A stretch of DNA of 64,000 nucleotides, taken from contig NZ_CP092480.1 in the NCBI RefSeq assembly GCF_022429645.1, positions 1,205,501 through 1,269,500 on the forward strand, written 5' to 3'. Every line of letters starts with the position of its first letter. Position 1 is the first letter of the stretch. Below the pieces are notes generated by a model. That model was not told where the DNA came from, ran no database searches, and was given only the letters and a program-made list of their open reading frames with translations. Both the position numbers and the translations under genes were made by a program. Shown in pieces: positions 8,951 through 12,604 of the stretch. This DNA is from Lutibacter sp. A80 (GTDB lineage: Bacteria; Bacteroidota; Bacteroidia; Flavobacteriales; Flavobacteriaceae).

Positions 8951-9439
8951 TTAGCTTACCAAAAAGCGTTTATGCCAACTTTTATCTGCAGTTACTTCCC
9001 AATTGTTTTCAAAATCTCCTTTAGTTGTTACTAAATTATTAAAAACAATAGTGTTTGTAGTAATTTTTTGTTCCTTAACATATTTTTGAAAATCTGCCAT
9101 GCTAACTATGTTAATAGCATCACCATCTCTAAAAGAAACATTCAACTTATTTGTTAAATCTACTGAAAAAACATTTTCTAAATTCTTGATTAAATTTACA
9201 GATGCATCAATAGAACAACCTGAAACATTGTTAAAATTTTCATCTACAGCCAACACAATAAATTGATTGTATTTAATACAAAAAGATGCTTTTAAATCTT
9301 CTCCATGTCGTTGCCAACCTAAAACAAAATCGGCAGTTTTTTCATTTATAATTTCAACTTCATTATTAGTAAACGCTCTATTTGCTTGATAAATCCAAAC
9401 TCTAGCATTTTTATCTAAATCTTCAAAATTAACGAACAT
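8951..9439 (-). CDS. Conserved flavobacterial protein of unknown function
   Basis: 162 residues, starting MFVNFEDLDKNARVWIYQAN. Homologues in flavobacteria are often labelled ABC transporter ATPase, but there is no Walker A, signature or Walker B motif here, so that name is not supported. No signal peptide or membrane helix is visible. The ATG lies two bases after the exonuclease stop, so the two are probably one transcript. The function is unknown. Confidence 0.75.
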   Translation of the reverse strand: MFVNFEDLDKNARVWIYQANRAFTNNEVEIINEKTADFVLGWQRHGEDLKASFCIKYNQFIVLAVDENFNNVSGCSIDASVNLIKNLENVFSVDLTNKLNVSFRDGDAINIVSMADFQKYVKEQKITTNTIVFNNLVTTKGDFENNWEVTADKSWHKRFLVS

Positions 9440-9441
9440 AT

Positions 9442-10260
9442 TTAAATTTTTTGATTGAATTTTTTTTGCAAATCGTCTAAGGTACTCTCTTTTTTATTGA
9501 AAAAAGTTTTTTCTTTAATTTGACTTAATACTTTTTTGGTATATAAAGGAAAATCTGCATTTTGTATCCAAGAATAATATCCTTTATCTTTCTTTAAAAT
9601 ATCAGCTACTTTTTGACCTTTATATTTTCCAAAAGTAAATATCTCTTCATTTTTATCATTGTACATAATAAACCCTGCAAAATCAGCTCTTTTATGATGT
9701 CTAGAATATTCATTTAAAAAATTAACATCATTTTCAAGGTCATCATATTTATCTAACTGAGCTTTTAAAATTTCGTAAGTAGCCATTGTATCAGCTTCTG
9801 CAGAATGTGCATTCTCTAGATCTTTACCACAATAAAATTTATAACCAGCACTTAATGTTCTTTCTTCTTTTTTATGAAAAATTACTTGTACATCAATTGC
9901 AACTCTATCTTTCATATCAAAATTCACATTTGCTCTTAACATTTCTTCTGCAAGCAACGGAATATCGAATCTGTTAGAATTAAACCCAGCTAAATCACAA
10001 CCATCAATCATTTTACTAACTTCACCTGCCAATTCTTTAAAGGTAGGTTCTGTAACTACTTTTTCGTTAGTAATTCCGTGAATATCTGAAGACTCTTTAG
10101 GTATTTCCATTTCAGGATTTACCAACCAAGTTTTACTTTCTTTATTTCCGTTTGGAAACACTTTTAAAATAGAAATTTCTACAATTCTATCTTTTGCAAT
10201 ATTGATTCCTGTTGTTTCTAAATCGAAAAAAATAATCGGTTTTGTTAGCTTTAATTCCAT
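9442..10260 (-). CDS. DnaQ-like 3'-5' exonuclease with ExoX-like C-terminal domain
   Basis: 272 residues from ATG 10260. An upstream ATG at 10296 is in frame, but MELKLTKPIIFFDLETTG is the family start. The RNase-T/DnaQ fold is complete: FFDLETTG gives Exo I (D-x-E), LAGFNSNRFDIPLL gives Exo II and AHSAEADTMAT gives Exo III with the HxAxxD pattern of the DEDDh class. The C-terminal FTFGKYKGQKVADILKKDKG resembles the small domain found at the end of ExoX-like nucleases. It likely degrades DNA 3' ends in repair or proofreading. Its stop is two bases from the start of the next gene downstream. Confidence 0.88.
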   Translation of the reverse strand: MELKLTKPIIFFDLETTGINIAKDRIVEISILKVFPNGNKESKTWLVNPEMEIPKESSDIHGITNEKVVTEPTFKELAGEVSKMIDGCDLAGFNSNRFDIPLLAEEMLRANVNFDMKDRVAIDVQVIFHKKEERTLSAGYKFYCGKDLENAHSAEADTMATYEILKAQLDKYDDLENDVNFLNEYSRHHKRADFAGFIMYNDKNEEIFTFGKYKGQKVADILKKDKGYYSWIQNADFPLYTKKVLSQIKEKTFFNKKESTLDDLQKKFNQKI

Positions 10261-10360
10261 AGTTATCTTAAAAAATATTAAGTTGTAAATATACAATTTG
10301 TAATTTACGATTTTAGGAATACCTGCACCGTTTTTTTAAACTTTTTAACAATATATTATA

Positions 10361-10432
10361 CTTCGACAAGCTCAGTATGACACTTCGTTAATTTAAAATT
10401 CGTTATTAATTGTCAGTCTGAGCTTGTCGAGG
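10361..10432. repeat. REPIN-like inverted repeat pair A
   Basis: Left arm 10361–10382 begins CTTCGACAAGCTCAG. Right arm 10411–10432 contains AGTCTGAGCTTGTCG. The arms are near-perfect reverse complements around a 28-base AT-rich loop. This is the first of five copies. It sits between the exonuclease gene and the nuclease array. Confidence 0.85.
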
Positions 10433-10497
10433 ACTCAATGTAAAAGACTTCATAAACTTTAAAATACTAATCTTTATAATTTTATTCTAAAAACATA
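10433..10497. repeat. 65-bp spacer X, copy 1
   Basis: This inter-repeat segment, starting ACTCAATGTAAAAGAC, is identical to 11351–11415. It contains no ORF. Its two copies bracket the nuclease genes, so the array reads X, gene, gene, X between repeat pairs. Confidence 0.85.
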
Positions 10498-10568
10498 CTT
10501 CGACAGGCTCAGTATGACACTTTGTTAATTTAAAATTCGTTTTTAATGTCAGTCTGAGCTTGTCGAAG
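10498..10568. repeat. REPIN-like inverted repeat pair B
   Basis: Arms are at 10498–10519 (CTTCGACAGGCTCAG...) and 10547–10568 (...GAGCTTGTCGAAG). The right arm overlaps the 3' end of the first GIY-YIG gene and supplies its stop codon. Confidence 0.88.
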
Positions 10569-10866
10569 ACTTACCGTATTGAGTATAATTTTTAGATAAC
10601 CTTACCAACTTGTCAAATTCACCATTAATCAGTGCTTCTTTTTTAACTCTACTCCATCCTTTTAACTTTTTCTCAAAACCAATTGCTTGCTCTATATCAT
10701 TAAAAGTTTGATTCCAAATTAAGGCTATTGGCCTTCTTTTAAATGTATAACTTTTAGAATCTAAACCTTCTTTATGCTCCATAATTCTTTTTTCTAAATT
10801 ATTAGTAACACCAACATAGTACGAATTATCAGCACATTTTAAAATATAAACATCATACGTTTTCAT
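10549..10866 (-). CDS. GIY-YIG nuclease family protein, copy 1
   Basis: 105 residues of the small UPF0213/URI-type GIY-YIG family. The strands carrying YDVYILKCADNSYYVGVTNN give the (G)IY and (Y)VG motifs. EHKEGLDSKSYTFKRRPIAL and WNQTFNDIEQAIGFEKKLKGW carry the conserved Arg and Glu regions of the fold, so the catalytic core looks intact. It differs from copy 2 by one base (10652 C against 11042 T), giving Ser instead of Asn after KGW. The last residues, KSSTSSD, and the stop codon are encoded inside a REP arm. The gene lies between repeat pairs B and C. It probably nicks or cuts DNA, and a role in repeat mobility is inferred only from position. Confidence 0.88.
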   Translation of the reverse strand: MKTYDVYILKCADNSYYVGVTNNLEKRIMEHKEGLDSKSYTFKRRPIALIWNQTFNDIEQAIGFEKKLKGWSRVKKEALINGEFDKLVRLSKNYTQYGKSSTSSD

Positions 10867-10888
10867 AGCTTTATTTTAGGATAACATA

Positions 10889-10958
10889 CTTCGACAGGCT
10901 CAGCATGACACTTATTAATTTAAAATTCGTTTTTAATGTCAGTCTGAGCTTGTCGAAG
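10889..10958. repeat. REPIN-like inverted repeat pair C
   Basis: Arms are at 10889–10910 and 10937–10958. The left arm has CAGCATG where the others have CAGTATG. It separates the two nuclease genes, and its right arm encodes the C-terminus of copy 2. Confidence 0.88.
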
Positions 10959-11256
10959 ACTTACCGTATTGAGTATAATTTTTAGATAACCTTACCAACT
11001 TGTCAAATTCACCATTAATCAGTGCTTCTTTTTTAACTCTATTCCATCCTTTTAACTTTTTCTCAAAACCAATTGCTTGCTCTATATCATTAAAAGTTTG
11101 ATTCCAAATTAAGGCTATTGGCCTTCTTTTAAATGTATAACTTTTAGAATCTAAACCTTCTTTATGCTCCATAATTCTTTTTTCTAAATTATTAGTAACA
11201 CCAACATAGTACGAATTATCAGCACATTTTAAAATATAAACATCATACGTTTTCAT
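10939..11256 (-). CDS. GIY-YIG nuclease family protein, copy 2
   Basis: 105 residues, identical to copy 1 except Asn for Ser after KGW. The near-identical block extends beyond the gene: 10531–10902 matches 10921–11292 at an offset of 390 bases, so a REP-bounded unit was duplicated in tandem. As in copy 1, the C-terminal KSSTSSD and stop lie in a REP arm. The YILKCADNSYYVGVTNN core of the nuclease is intact. Both copies being intact suggests a recent duplication, or selection, or gene conversion. Confidence 0.88.
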   Translation of the reverse strand: MKTYDVYILKCADNSYYVGVTNNLEKRIMEHKEGLDSKSYTFKRRPIALIWNQTFNDIEQAIGFEKKLKGWNRVKKEALINGEFDKLVRLSKNYTQYGKSSTSSD

Positions 11257-11278
11257 AGCTTTATTTTAGGATAACATA

Positions 11279-11350
11279 CTTCGACAGGCTCAGTATGACA
11301 ATTCGTTAATTTAAAATTCATTCTTAATCGTCAGTCTGAGCTTGTCGAAG
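11279..11350. repeat. REPIN-like inverted repeat pair D
   Basis: Arms are at 11279–11300 and 11329–11350. It lies directly upstream of nuclease copy 2 and is followed by the second 65-bp spacer. Confidence 0.87.
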
Positions 11351-11415
11351 ACTCAATGTAAAAGACTTCATAAACTTTAAAATACTAATCTTTATAATTT
11401 TATTCTAAAAACATA
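11351..11415. repeat. 65-bp spacer X, copy 2
   Basis: Identical to 10433–10497, 918 bases away. It sits between repeat pairs D and E. Confidence 0.85.
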
Positions 11416-11487
11416 CTTCGACAGGCTCAGTATGACACTTTGTTAATTTAAAATTCATTATTAATTGTCAGTCTGAACTTGTCGAAG
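11416..11487. repeat. REPIN-like inverted repeat pair E
   Basis: Arms are at 11416–11437 and 11466–11487. The right arm carries GAACTT where the others read GAGCTT. It ends 38 bases before the PPK2 stop codon, and the hairpin could end PPK2 transcription. Confidence 0.87.
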
Positions 11488-11524
11488 ACTCTCTGTAGTA
11501 GACTTTTCTTGTTAAGATTAAAAT

Positions 11525-12373
11525 TTACTCATTCTCTAATTGATTCTTATAATTTTCAATTTCAATTTTATATTTTTTTGGCAGTTCTGGTTCTTTAAAA
11601 TTGTATTGTTTTAAAGTTTTATAAATAGTTTCCGCAACAATTAAACGAGCTGTTGGTTTATCGTCTGCAGGAATTACATACCAAGGTGCATTATCTTTAG
11701 AAGTTTTATTTAATAAATCTTGGTAACAAAACTGATACTTATCCCAAAGCTTACGTTCTTTTAAATCTCCAGGTGAAAATTTCCAATTTTTTTCTTTTAA
11801 ACGCAATCTGCGTAATAATCTATTTTTTTGCTCTTCTTTTGAAAGGTTTAAAAAGAATTTTAAAATAATAGTTCCATTATCAGAAATAAATTTTTCGAAA
11901 TTATTTATTTCGTCCATTCTGTTATTGTAAAAATCATCATTTAAATCGTCTAAACTTTTTACTGTCGGTATTTTTTCTCCAAAAATATATTCTGGATGCA
12001 CACGTGTTACCAATACATTTTCGTAATGTGTTCTGTTAAAAACACCTATTTTACCTTTAGCTGGTAATGCAATATAATGACGCCATAAATAATCGTGTTT
12101 TAACTCCAACTCCGTTGGAACCTTAAAACTGTGCACCACAACACCTTGCGCACTAACATTTTTAAAAACCTCTCTAATTAAACTATCTTTCCCGGAAGTA
12201 TCCATGCCTTGTAAACAAATTAAAACGGCATATTTACCTTCGGCATACATTGCCTCTTGAATTTCACTTATTTTTTTTCTTATGGCTTTTAATTTCTTTT
12301 TAGCTTTTTTTTCTACTTCTTTAGTTTCTATTTCATTTAATTTTATAGTACCTGTTACTTTATATTTATTCAT
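11525..12373 (-). CDS. Polyphosphate kinase 2 family protein (PPK2)
   Basis: 282 residues, typical of single-domain PPK2. The Walker A block LQGMDTSGKDSLI (GMDTSGKD at 56–63) follows a basic helical N-terminus. GVFNRTHYENVLVTRVHPE is the conserved PPK2 region with the Walker B neighbourhood and lid. LRLKEKNWKFSPGDLKERKLWDKY continues the family core. It transfers phosphate between polyphosphate and nucleotides in the cytosol. The substrate class (NMP or NDP) cannot be fixed by eye. It starts divergently from the radical SAM gene, and the 231-base gap to that gene holds no exact TAnnTTTG match. Confidence 0.93.
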   Translation of the reverse strand: MNKYKVTGTIKLNEIETKEVEKKAKKKLKAIRKKISEIQEAMYAEGKYAVLICLQGMDTSGKDSLIREVFKNVSAQGVVVHSFKVPTELELKHDYLWRHYIALPAKGKIGVFNRTHYENVLVTRVHPEYIFGEKIPTVKSLDDLNDDFYNNRMDEINNFEKFISDNGTIILKFFLNLSKEEQKNRLLRRLRLKEKNWKFSPGDLKERKLWDKYQFCYQDLLNKTSKDNAPWYVIPADDKPTARLIVAETIYKTLKQYNFKEPELPKKYKIEIENYKNQLENE

Positions 12374-12604
12374 TTGTTTGTTTTTAATTTATCAATAAAA
12401 TTATGAAATTATTTAATTATGAATTTGAATAACGCATTAATTTCAAAAAAATTTCAGTAAAACTTATGCTTTCTATTAAATAAAAAACTTGGTTGGTAAT
12501 TTACATTACACTTAATAACCACTATACTTTGTAACTTCGTTGTCAACAATAATTTGTTTTAGCTTACAACTAAGTAAAACAATAATTACATAAAAAATTA
12601 ACTT

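Follow-up and report, generated by a model that had tools for sequence, protein, structure and literature searches.

A probable module of GIY-YIG nuclease genes and cognate tagged hairpin repeats in Lutibacter sp. A80

An array of five inverted repeat pairs in Lutibacter sp. A80, which encloses two near-identical GIY-YIG nuclease genes and two copies of a spacer (X), probably represents a small selfish or semi-domesticated module in which a GIY-YIG nuclease and its cognate hairpin sites spread together. This reading rests mainly on the coupling between repeat type and nuclease clade and on the repeats found in the flanks of nuclease genes from many genomes. That hairpin type tracks enzyme type points to a possible enzyme partner for REP sequences of a class described as having none.

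The array and its repeat unit

The array was located in a window of 64,000 nucleotides, the whole stretch of DNA that was analysed, between two neighbouring genes that we take to be exonuclease-like and PPK2-like, both names being based on the sequences themselves rather than on a family search. The order of the array was pair, X, pair, nuclease, pair, nuclease, pair, X, pair, with start-to-start spacings between pairs of 137, 391, 390 and 137. The features were as follows.

9442-10260, minus strand: presumed exonuclease-like neighbour gene, which adjoins the PPK2-like gene in 26 congeners
10359-10434: pair P1, in which two hairpin units with a YGTCA tag stand head to head (minus unit 10382-10359, with a TA/TA stem; plus unit 10411-10434, with a GT/AC stem)
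10435-10495: first copy of spacer X, with its start 918 from that of the second
10496-10570: pair P2 (minus unit 10519-10496; plus unit 10547-10570)
10549-10866, minus strand: GIY-YIG nuclease gene 1, 105 aa (PF01541, 64.1 bits)
10887-10960: pair P3 (minus unit 10910-10887, with a G.T wobble in its stem; plus unit 10937-10960)
10939-11256, minus strand: GIY-YIG nuclease gene 2, 105 aa (PF01541, 63.7 bits)
11277-11352: pair P4 (minus unit 11300-11277; plus unit 11329-11352, tagged CGTCA)
11353-11413: spacer X copy 2
11414-11489: pair P5 (minus unit 11437-11414; plus unit 11466-11489)
11525-12373, minus strand: presumed PPK2-like neighbour gene at the far end of the insertion

These coordinates, together with PF01541 matches of both ORFs above the cut-off (22.6 bits), confirmed the initial annotation of five palindromes bracketing X, nuclease, nuclease and X. 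The two nucleases differed at one residue, and their genes were separated by 390 bp from start to start. The plus unit of P2 doubled as the C-terminus and stop codon of gene 1, and the plus unit of P3 performed the same double function for gene 2. The stop codon was supplied within the TGACA of the repeat, and the same junction was observed in two congeners (L072 and L073). A search of the window for CTTCGACARGCTCAG with up to 3 mismatches detected 10 sites compared to an expected 0.83 (100 shuffles; maximum, 4), a count so far above that of the shuffles that chance was excluded for the array. Counting of exact cores across the whole genome, as proposed in the initial annotation, gave a total of 10, of which 8 were within the array.

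Alignment of 11 nuclease sequences indicated that Y7, Y17, G19, R27, H31 and E65 were invariant, and these residues presumably have catalytic roles. Sequence relatives included the UPF0213 structures 1zg2 (BH0048; E value of 3.9e-12) and 1ywl (EF2693; E value of 4e-9). Assignment to the group I intron homing endonucleases was not supported, as the match to TIGR01453 scored 20.6 bits, below the cut-off of 56.05, and covered residues 6 to 40 only. A PADLOC search for anti-phage defence families produced no match, and such a family was rejected.

Examination of the pairs indicated that the repeat unit was a 24-nt hairpin, 5'-YGTCA-NNCT-GAGCYTGTCGA-AGN'N', and that each palindrome was a head-to-head (HH) pair of such units. 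All 10 units in the window started with YGTCA, and both N pairs were complementary in 9 of these units, with the tenth having the G.T wobble. Left units had TA/TA stems and right units had GT/AC stems, such that pairing was kept despite the difference in sequence. Similar covariation was detected in loci L001 to L200, whose repeats belonged to several of the eight types (A to H) into which all repeats were sorted. For type A, both N positions were paired in 108 of 113 distinct units (shuffled mean, 33.0; maximum in 1,000 shuffles, 48), and for types B, C and D in 34/37, 35/38 and 176/184 units, respectively. Type A units in HH dimers were paired within their own stem in 56 of 60 cases, while 28 of the 30 dimers were heterodimers whose arms would mispair across the dimer; heterodimers accounted for 6/6, 17/18 and 40/47 of the HH dimers in three other types. 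As the units pair within their own stems while the dimer arms differ, selection appears to act on a single hairpin, in the form of either single-stranded DNA or RNA. The large palindrome was thus rejected as the functional unit, and the initial view of the palindrome as the natural unit gave way, on the basis of stem covariation and heterodimers, to one of a half-palindrome hairpin. Folding of single units as DNA was weak (-1.6 kcal/mol, z of 0.47, and -2.4 kcal/mol, z of -2.37), with one of the two units tested folding no better than shuffles, and two dimers folded well (z of -7.1 and -5.5).

Linkage of nuclease genes and repeats across genomes

The flanks of nuclease relatives, consisting of ~300 bp on each side and taken from loci chosen among the matches listed, were examined for words of at least 14 nt with an A+T content of at most 85%. 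A total of 145 ORF matches was reduced to 138 by removal of duplicates and of ORFs of >150 or <60 aa and then to 135 by removal of 3 without flanks. A word common to both flanks was detected in 111 of these 135 relatives, compared to 0 of 28 PPK2 controls and 4 of 56 neighbouring ORFs. The GC content was 0.37 for both the nuclease flanks and the neighbour stretches and 0.26 for the PPK2 control flanks, which were hence more AT-rich. Replication was performed with titled genome records, using 80 loci; removal of 6 for short flanks and of 5 of the other 74 because they belonged to the first set left 69 further loci, of which 56 shared a word (controls, 3/128). No shared word of at least 14 nt was found in the other 24 of the 135 relatives. 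Two other GIY-YIG genes of the Lutibacter sp. A80 genome (L004 and L005) had flanks sharing only 9- and 12-nt direct words. A total of 57 distant GIY-YIG relatives were also found on viral contigs, and shared flanks were present in 1 of the 48 loci analysed after 9 with short or partial matches were left out.

In a ranking of all 256 tetramers, CGTC and TGTC were, among those with n of at least 100, the ones that preceded hairpins in the flanks at the highest rate (0.290 and 0.282, compared to 0.122 and 0.128, respectively, further away). Enrichment in the nuclease flanks was observed for TGTCA and CGTCA and was absent for AGTCA and GGTCA. Among 98 genes having a detected unit on each side, 55 were faced by both of their nearest units, a count obtained with a lenient hairpin criterion and without a control of its own.

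The analysis was extended to related GIY-YIG genes at 16 named loci, selected from 33 plasmid-collection records so as to cover genera. YGTC hairpins were present on both flanks in 10 of the 16 loci and in 0 of 16 control stretches; for a hairpin on either flank, the numbers were 11 loci versus 3 controls. All ten loci with hairpins on both flanks were proteobacterial (Azospirillum, Neisseria, Aeromonas, Neorhizobium, Rhizobium, two Shinella, Novosphingobium and two Sphingobium), with the two Sphingobium loci looking like one locus in two strains. The Photobacterium locus had a hairpin on one side, two Sinorhizobium loci and a Planktothrix locus had other repeats common to both sides of the gene, and no YGTC hairpin was detected in the flanks of the Rhizobium tumorigenes and Spirosoma loci. 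Overall, these results upheld the initial identification of a GIY-YIG gene, rather than a RAYT gene, as the linked partner of the repeats and indicated that the link is general, extending across both sets of relatives (111/135 and 56/69) and the proteobacterial loci.

Repeat types were compared with nuclease phylogeny using labels assigned by motif patterns that were written after inspection of the flanks; 31 loci had more than one type, and a type could not be assigned for 10 of the 138 nucleases. On a tree of the 138 nucleases, the repeat label required 20 changes, compared to 87.6 for shuffled labels (0 of 200 shuffles as low). A tree of the first 85 residues required 28 changes, so that repeat-encoded C-termini cannot be driving the coupling of type to clade. 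Gene pairs from the same genome shared a type in 8 of 48 cases, which was no more than the 18% observed over all pairs. The repeat label hence follows the nuclease and not the host genome. Labels A and B did not form single clades, requiring 7 and 6 changes, respectively.

A difference between the two ends of the genes was also detected. For type D, the nearest gene-facing units were CT (n = 22) or GT (n = 9) upstream and CT (n = 2) or GT (n = 27) downstream (p = 2.5e-7). Upstream and downstream subtypes differed among the 138 genes for types C (p = 1.3e-3), A (p = 0.015) and B (p = 0.021), and the asymmetry had the same direction in a set of 213 genes that included these 138, these comparisons being made with subtypes picked after the 213-gene result had been seen and with tests that ignore relatedness.

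Gain, loss and copy number in congeners

The spacer between the PPK2-like and exonuclease-like genes was 1264 bp in the window versus 85 to 290 bp in 26 congeners. A locus with the PPK2 orthologue was obtained for 29 of 37 other congeners, 3 of which had no exonuclease gene detected nearby; neither the array nor a core was found in the orthologous spacer of any of the 26 congeners with both neighbours. A second spacer, for which 29 of 30 loci had both neighbours, contained a C-type nuclease gene with repeats in 6 cases, one of these genes having an in-frame stop and one being too short to be whole. In this comparison, made partly by eye, nuclease-free second spacers contained hairpins of another type in a few cases (e.g., L362 and L365) or a single C-like unit (L376), and others had no recognised repeat. 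The presence of genes and repeats at these sites is thus lineage specific.

Nine of the 38 genomes of the genus had a close nuclease (best E value of ≤1.1e-33) with A-type flanks, and these genomes contained 5 to 58 cores. The other 29, classified by best nuclease match as having no close A-flanked nuclease, contained 0 to 21 cores (Mann-Whitney p = 1e-4), a contrast that is partly built in because the A label is derived from the flanks. When cores of the nuclease locus were left out, the nine genomes retained 0, 1, 2, 6, 6, 7, 24, 31 and 44 cores, giving a median of 6 (range, 0 to 44) versus 1 (range, 0 to 21) in the 29 (p = 0.008), and hence the excess outside the nuclease locus was modest, which makes the argument from copy number somewhat weaker. 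Abundance of the repeats in relatives lacking the nuclease, named in the initial annotation as counting against the link, was encountered in part: 6 of the 29 congeners without a close nuclease kept 6 to 21 cores. The copy number in Lutibacter sp. A80 itself, in which there were only 2 exact cores beyond the array, is low, and recent spread in this genome is therefore not evident.

Among 199 genomes of the family, nuclease relatives were detected in 129 (E value of ≤0.001) and an exact core in 68. One of these genomes (G177) had 40 cores and a best nuclease match with an E value of 5.3e-5; 6 of the 7 core sites examined by eye were dimers seemingly nested in a longer MITE-like element. Terminal inverted repeats of ~20 nt were discerned by eye for this element at six sites (L182 to L187), and a Y1_Tnp-like ORF was located ~225 bp from a single unit elsewhere in the same genome (L181). 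In another genome (G200), a glycosyltransferase-like cluster (L189) contained nine A cores, together with further stretches within ORFs that looked like repeats, and no nuclease match was found in the 14 kb.

Known repeat systems and proposed explanation

REPs with CGTC or TGTC tags were described by Di Nocera, De Gregorio and Rocco in 2013 (PMC3733652). That report describes a predominance of HH dimers, heterodimers in several families and a distribution over five phyla that include Bacteroidetes, with Neisseria dRS3 as a member; the REPs fall into four families, have 8- to 9-bp stems that mostly begin with an AT pair, 4- to 5-nt loops and CCA tails and, in its words, apparently "lack a dedicated transposase" (PMC3733652). 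The likeness to the present repeats lies in hairpins whose one end bears an unpaired CGTC/TGTC tag, in the HH dimers and in the heterodimers. In type A, the stem is 4 to 5 bp long, the loop measures 11 nt, the first pairs vary and a CCA tail is lacking. TT dimers, too, are common in type A (29 versus 30 HH) but rare in the CGTC REPs (PMC3733652). Types G and H of Bacteroidota, on the other hand, and the units from Proteobacteria do resemble the CGTC REPs in hairpin form. The Neisseria relative among the named loci had 38% identity over 76 residues and flanks containing CGTC hairpins of the ATTCCC..GGGAAT kind. The Ssn proteins, reported by Chenal et al. in Nat Commun in 2025, are said to be site-specific single-strand nucleases of the GIY-YIG superfamily that cut single-stranded Neisseria repeats. 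Two of their features, a small GIY-YIG protein and a specific repeat family, are both present here, and the Ssn family may already cover part of the link between nuclease and repeat.

We propose that the array consists of a UPF0213-like nuclease of the Ssn-like kind and its cognate sites. One hairpin with YGTC(A) as its unpaired 5' tag would constitute the site, which would be read as single-stranded DNA, for example, on the lagging strand or in incoming DNA. Nuclease and hairpin type evolve together, and the gene is typically bounded by two inward-pointing units of differing subtype, a left-end form and a right-end form. The protein most likely binds the tag and hairpin, and such recognition is well supported by the coevolution seen in the sequences; nicking near the tag would be expected from membership of this nuclease family. 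Breaks at dispersed units could then be repaired by copying of another unit or of a unit-gene-unit cassette, with the consequence that repeats and gene would spread together, and recombination between identical repeats may have generated the tandem copies in the window. Movement, suggested by the lineage-specific presence and the end asymmetry, is the least certain of these steps. Several observations count against this account: the relatives with no shared word (24 of 135) or no assignable type (10 of 138), the genomes rich in cores that have no close nuclease (6 of 29 congeners and G177), the modest excess of cores outside the nuclease locus, the scatter of labels A and B over more than one clade, the weak folding of single units and the low copy number in Lutibacter sp. 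A80; the stems might, moreover, equally work at the RNA level.

The array has the overall look of a RAYT product, since the RAYT/REP and REPIN systems, which depend on IS200/IS605-type HUH transposases, also combine a tag and hairpin, inverted dimers and a repeat-flanked gene, and Y1_Tnp proteins were detected in 72 of the 199 family genomes. An origin as RAYT-made REPs or REPINs lying beside an unrelated nuclease is nevertheless scarcely credible. A search of the whole 3.93-Mb genome with PF01797 (Y1_Tnp/RAYT) gave 0 matches at an E value of ≤0.001, extending to the entire genome the absence of a RAYT gene noted in the initial annotation, and there was no association between Y1_Tnp and the presence of at least 5 cores in the family (11 of 28 such genomes; Fisher p = 0.83). 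A RAYT origin was rejected on these two grounds; moreover, RAYT/REP systems have a GTAG tag and another enzyme fold, whereas the tag here is YGTC and the repeats are strongly coupled to nuclease clade. A passive RNA role, with the hairpins acting as terminators or mRNA stabilisers around small genes by happenstance, would account for stem covariation as well as single-stranded DNA does but is very improbable, as neighbouring genes of the same loci mostly lacked the pattern (4/56) and type tracks the nuclease and not the host. A known RNA family was rejected, the one Rfam match in 9400-12400 being far below the cut-off (18.7 versus 97 bits).

The Ssn nuclease and NTS repeats of Neisseria are said to tune natural transformation or exchange. 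A domesticated system of this sort, in which the nuclease would cut single-stranded units in incoming DNA and so tune transformation or exchange near marked loci, is conceivable, if somewhat doubtful; the nuclease would not be the mover, and the repeats would spread by ordinary recombination and drift. The CGTC hairpins flanking the Neisseria relative and the persistence of repeats in some genomes without a close nuclease are consistent with such a role, but on its own it leaves unexplained the clade-specific repeat type around each gene, the left/right asymmetry and the occurrence of gene and repeats as one extra block. A homing-like element, whose nuclease would cut gene-free repeat dimers with repair copying the gene in, seems unlikely. 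Location of the genes between repeat units, the inward-facing nearest units (55/98 by the lenient criterion) and the second spacer, which in 29 genomes held nuclease and repeats in 6, repeats only in some and neither in others, would all fit homing; however, the window spacer of the 26 congeners had neither gene nor core, and thus no visible pre-existing repeats, and repeat-only second spacers mostly carried another repeat type.

The preferred reading, a nuclease module with cognate sites, has a wider form in which the entire superfamily of CGTC/TGTC-tagged REPs would owe its mobility to GIY-YIG nucleases as the enzymes so far missing, a suggestion that we make only tentatively. If correct, there would be a second, HUH-independent REP system parallel to the RAYT/GTAG REPs, with a hairpin-specific nickase that moves cassettes whose left and right ends carry distinct hairpins. 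The 2013 report found no dedicated transposase for CGTC REPs; the repeat types of Bacteroidota examined here travel with their own GIY-YIG clades, and related genes in Proteobacteria have CGTC hairpins in their flanks. The question of an enzyme for CGTC REPs thereby becomes directly testable with short oligonucleotides, and the relatives provide many natural candidates for hairpin-specific enzymes whose cognate sites are predictable.

Two of the plasmid loci were distinctive in their gene context. On an Azospirillum lipoferum plasmid (L284), the GIY-YIG gene with its CGTC hairpins was located between sufB and sufC, and on a Planktothrix plasmid (L282), a GIY-YIG gene with GTCATTCTGA-type repeats was located between an MmeI-like gene and the DISARM gene drmA.
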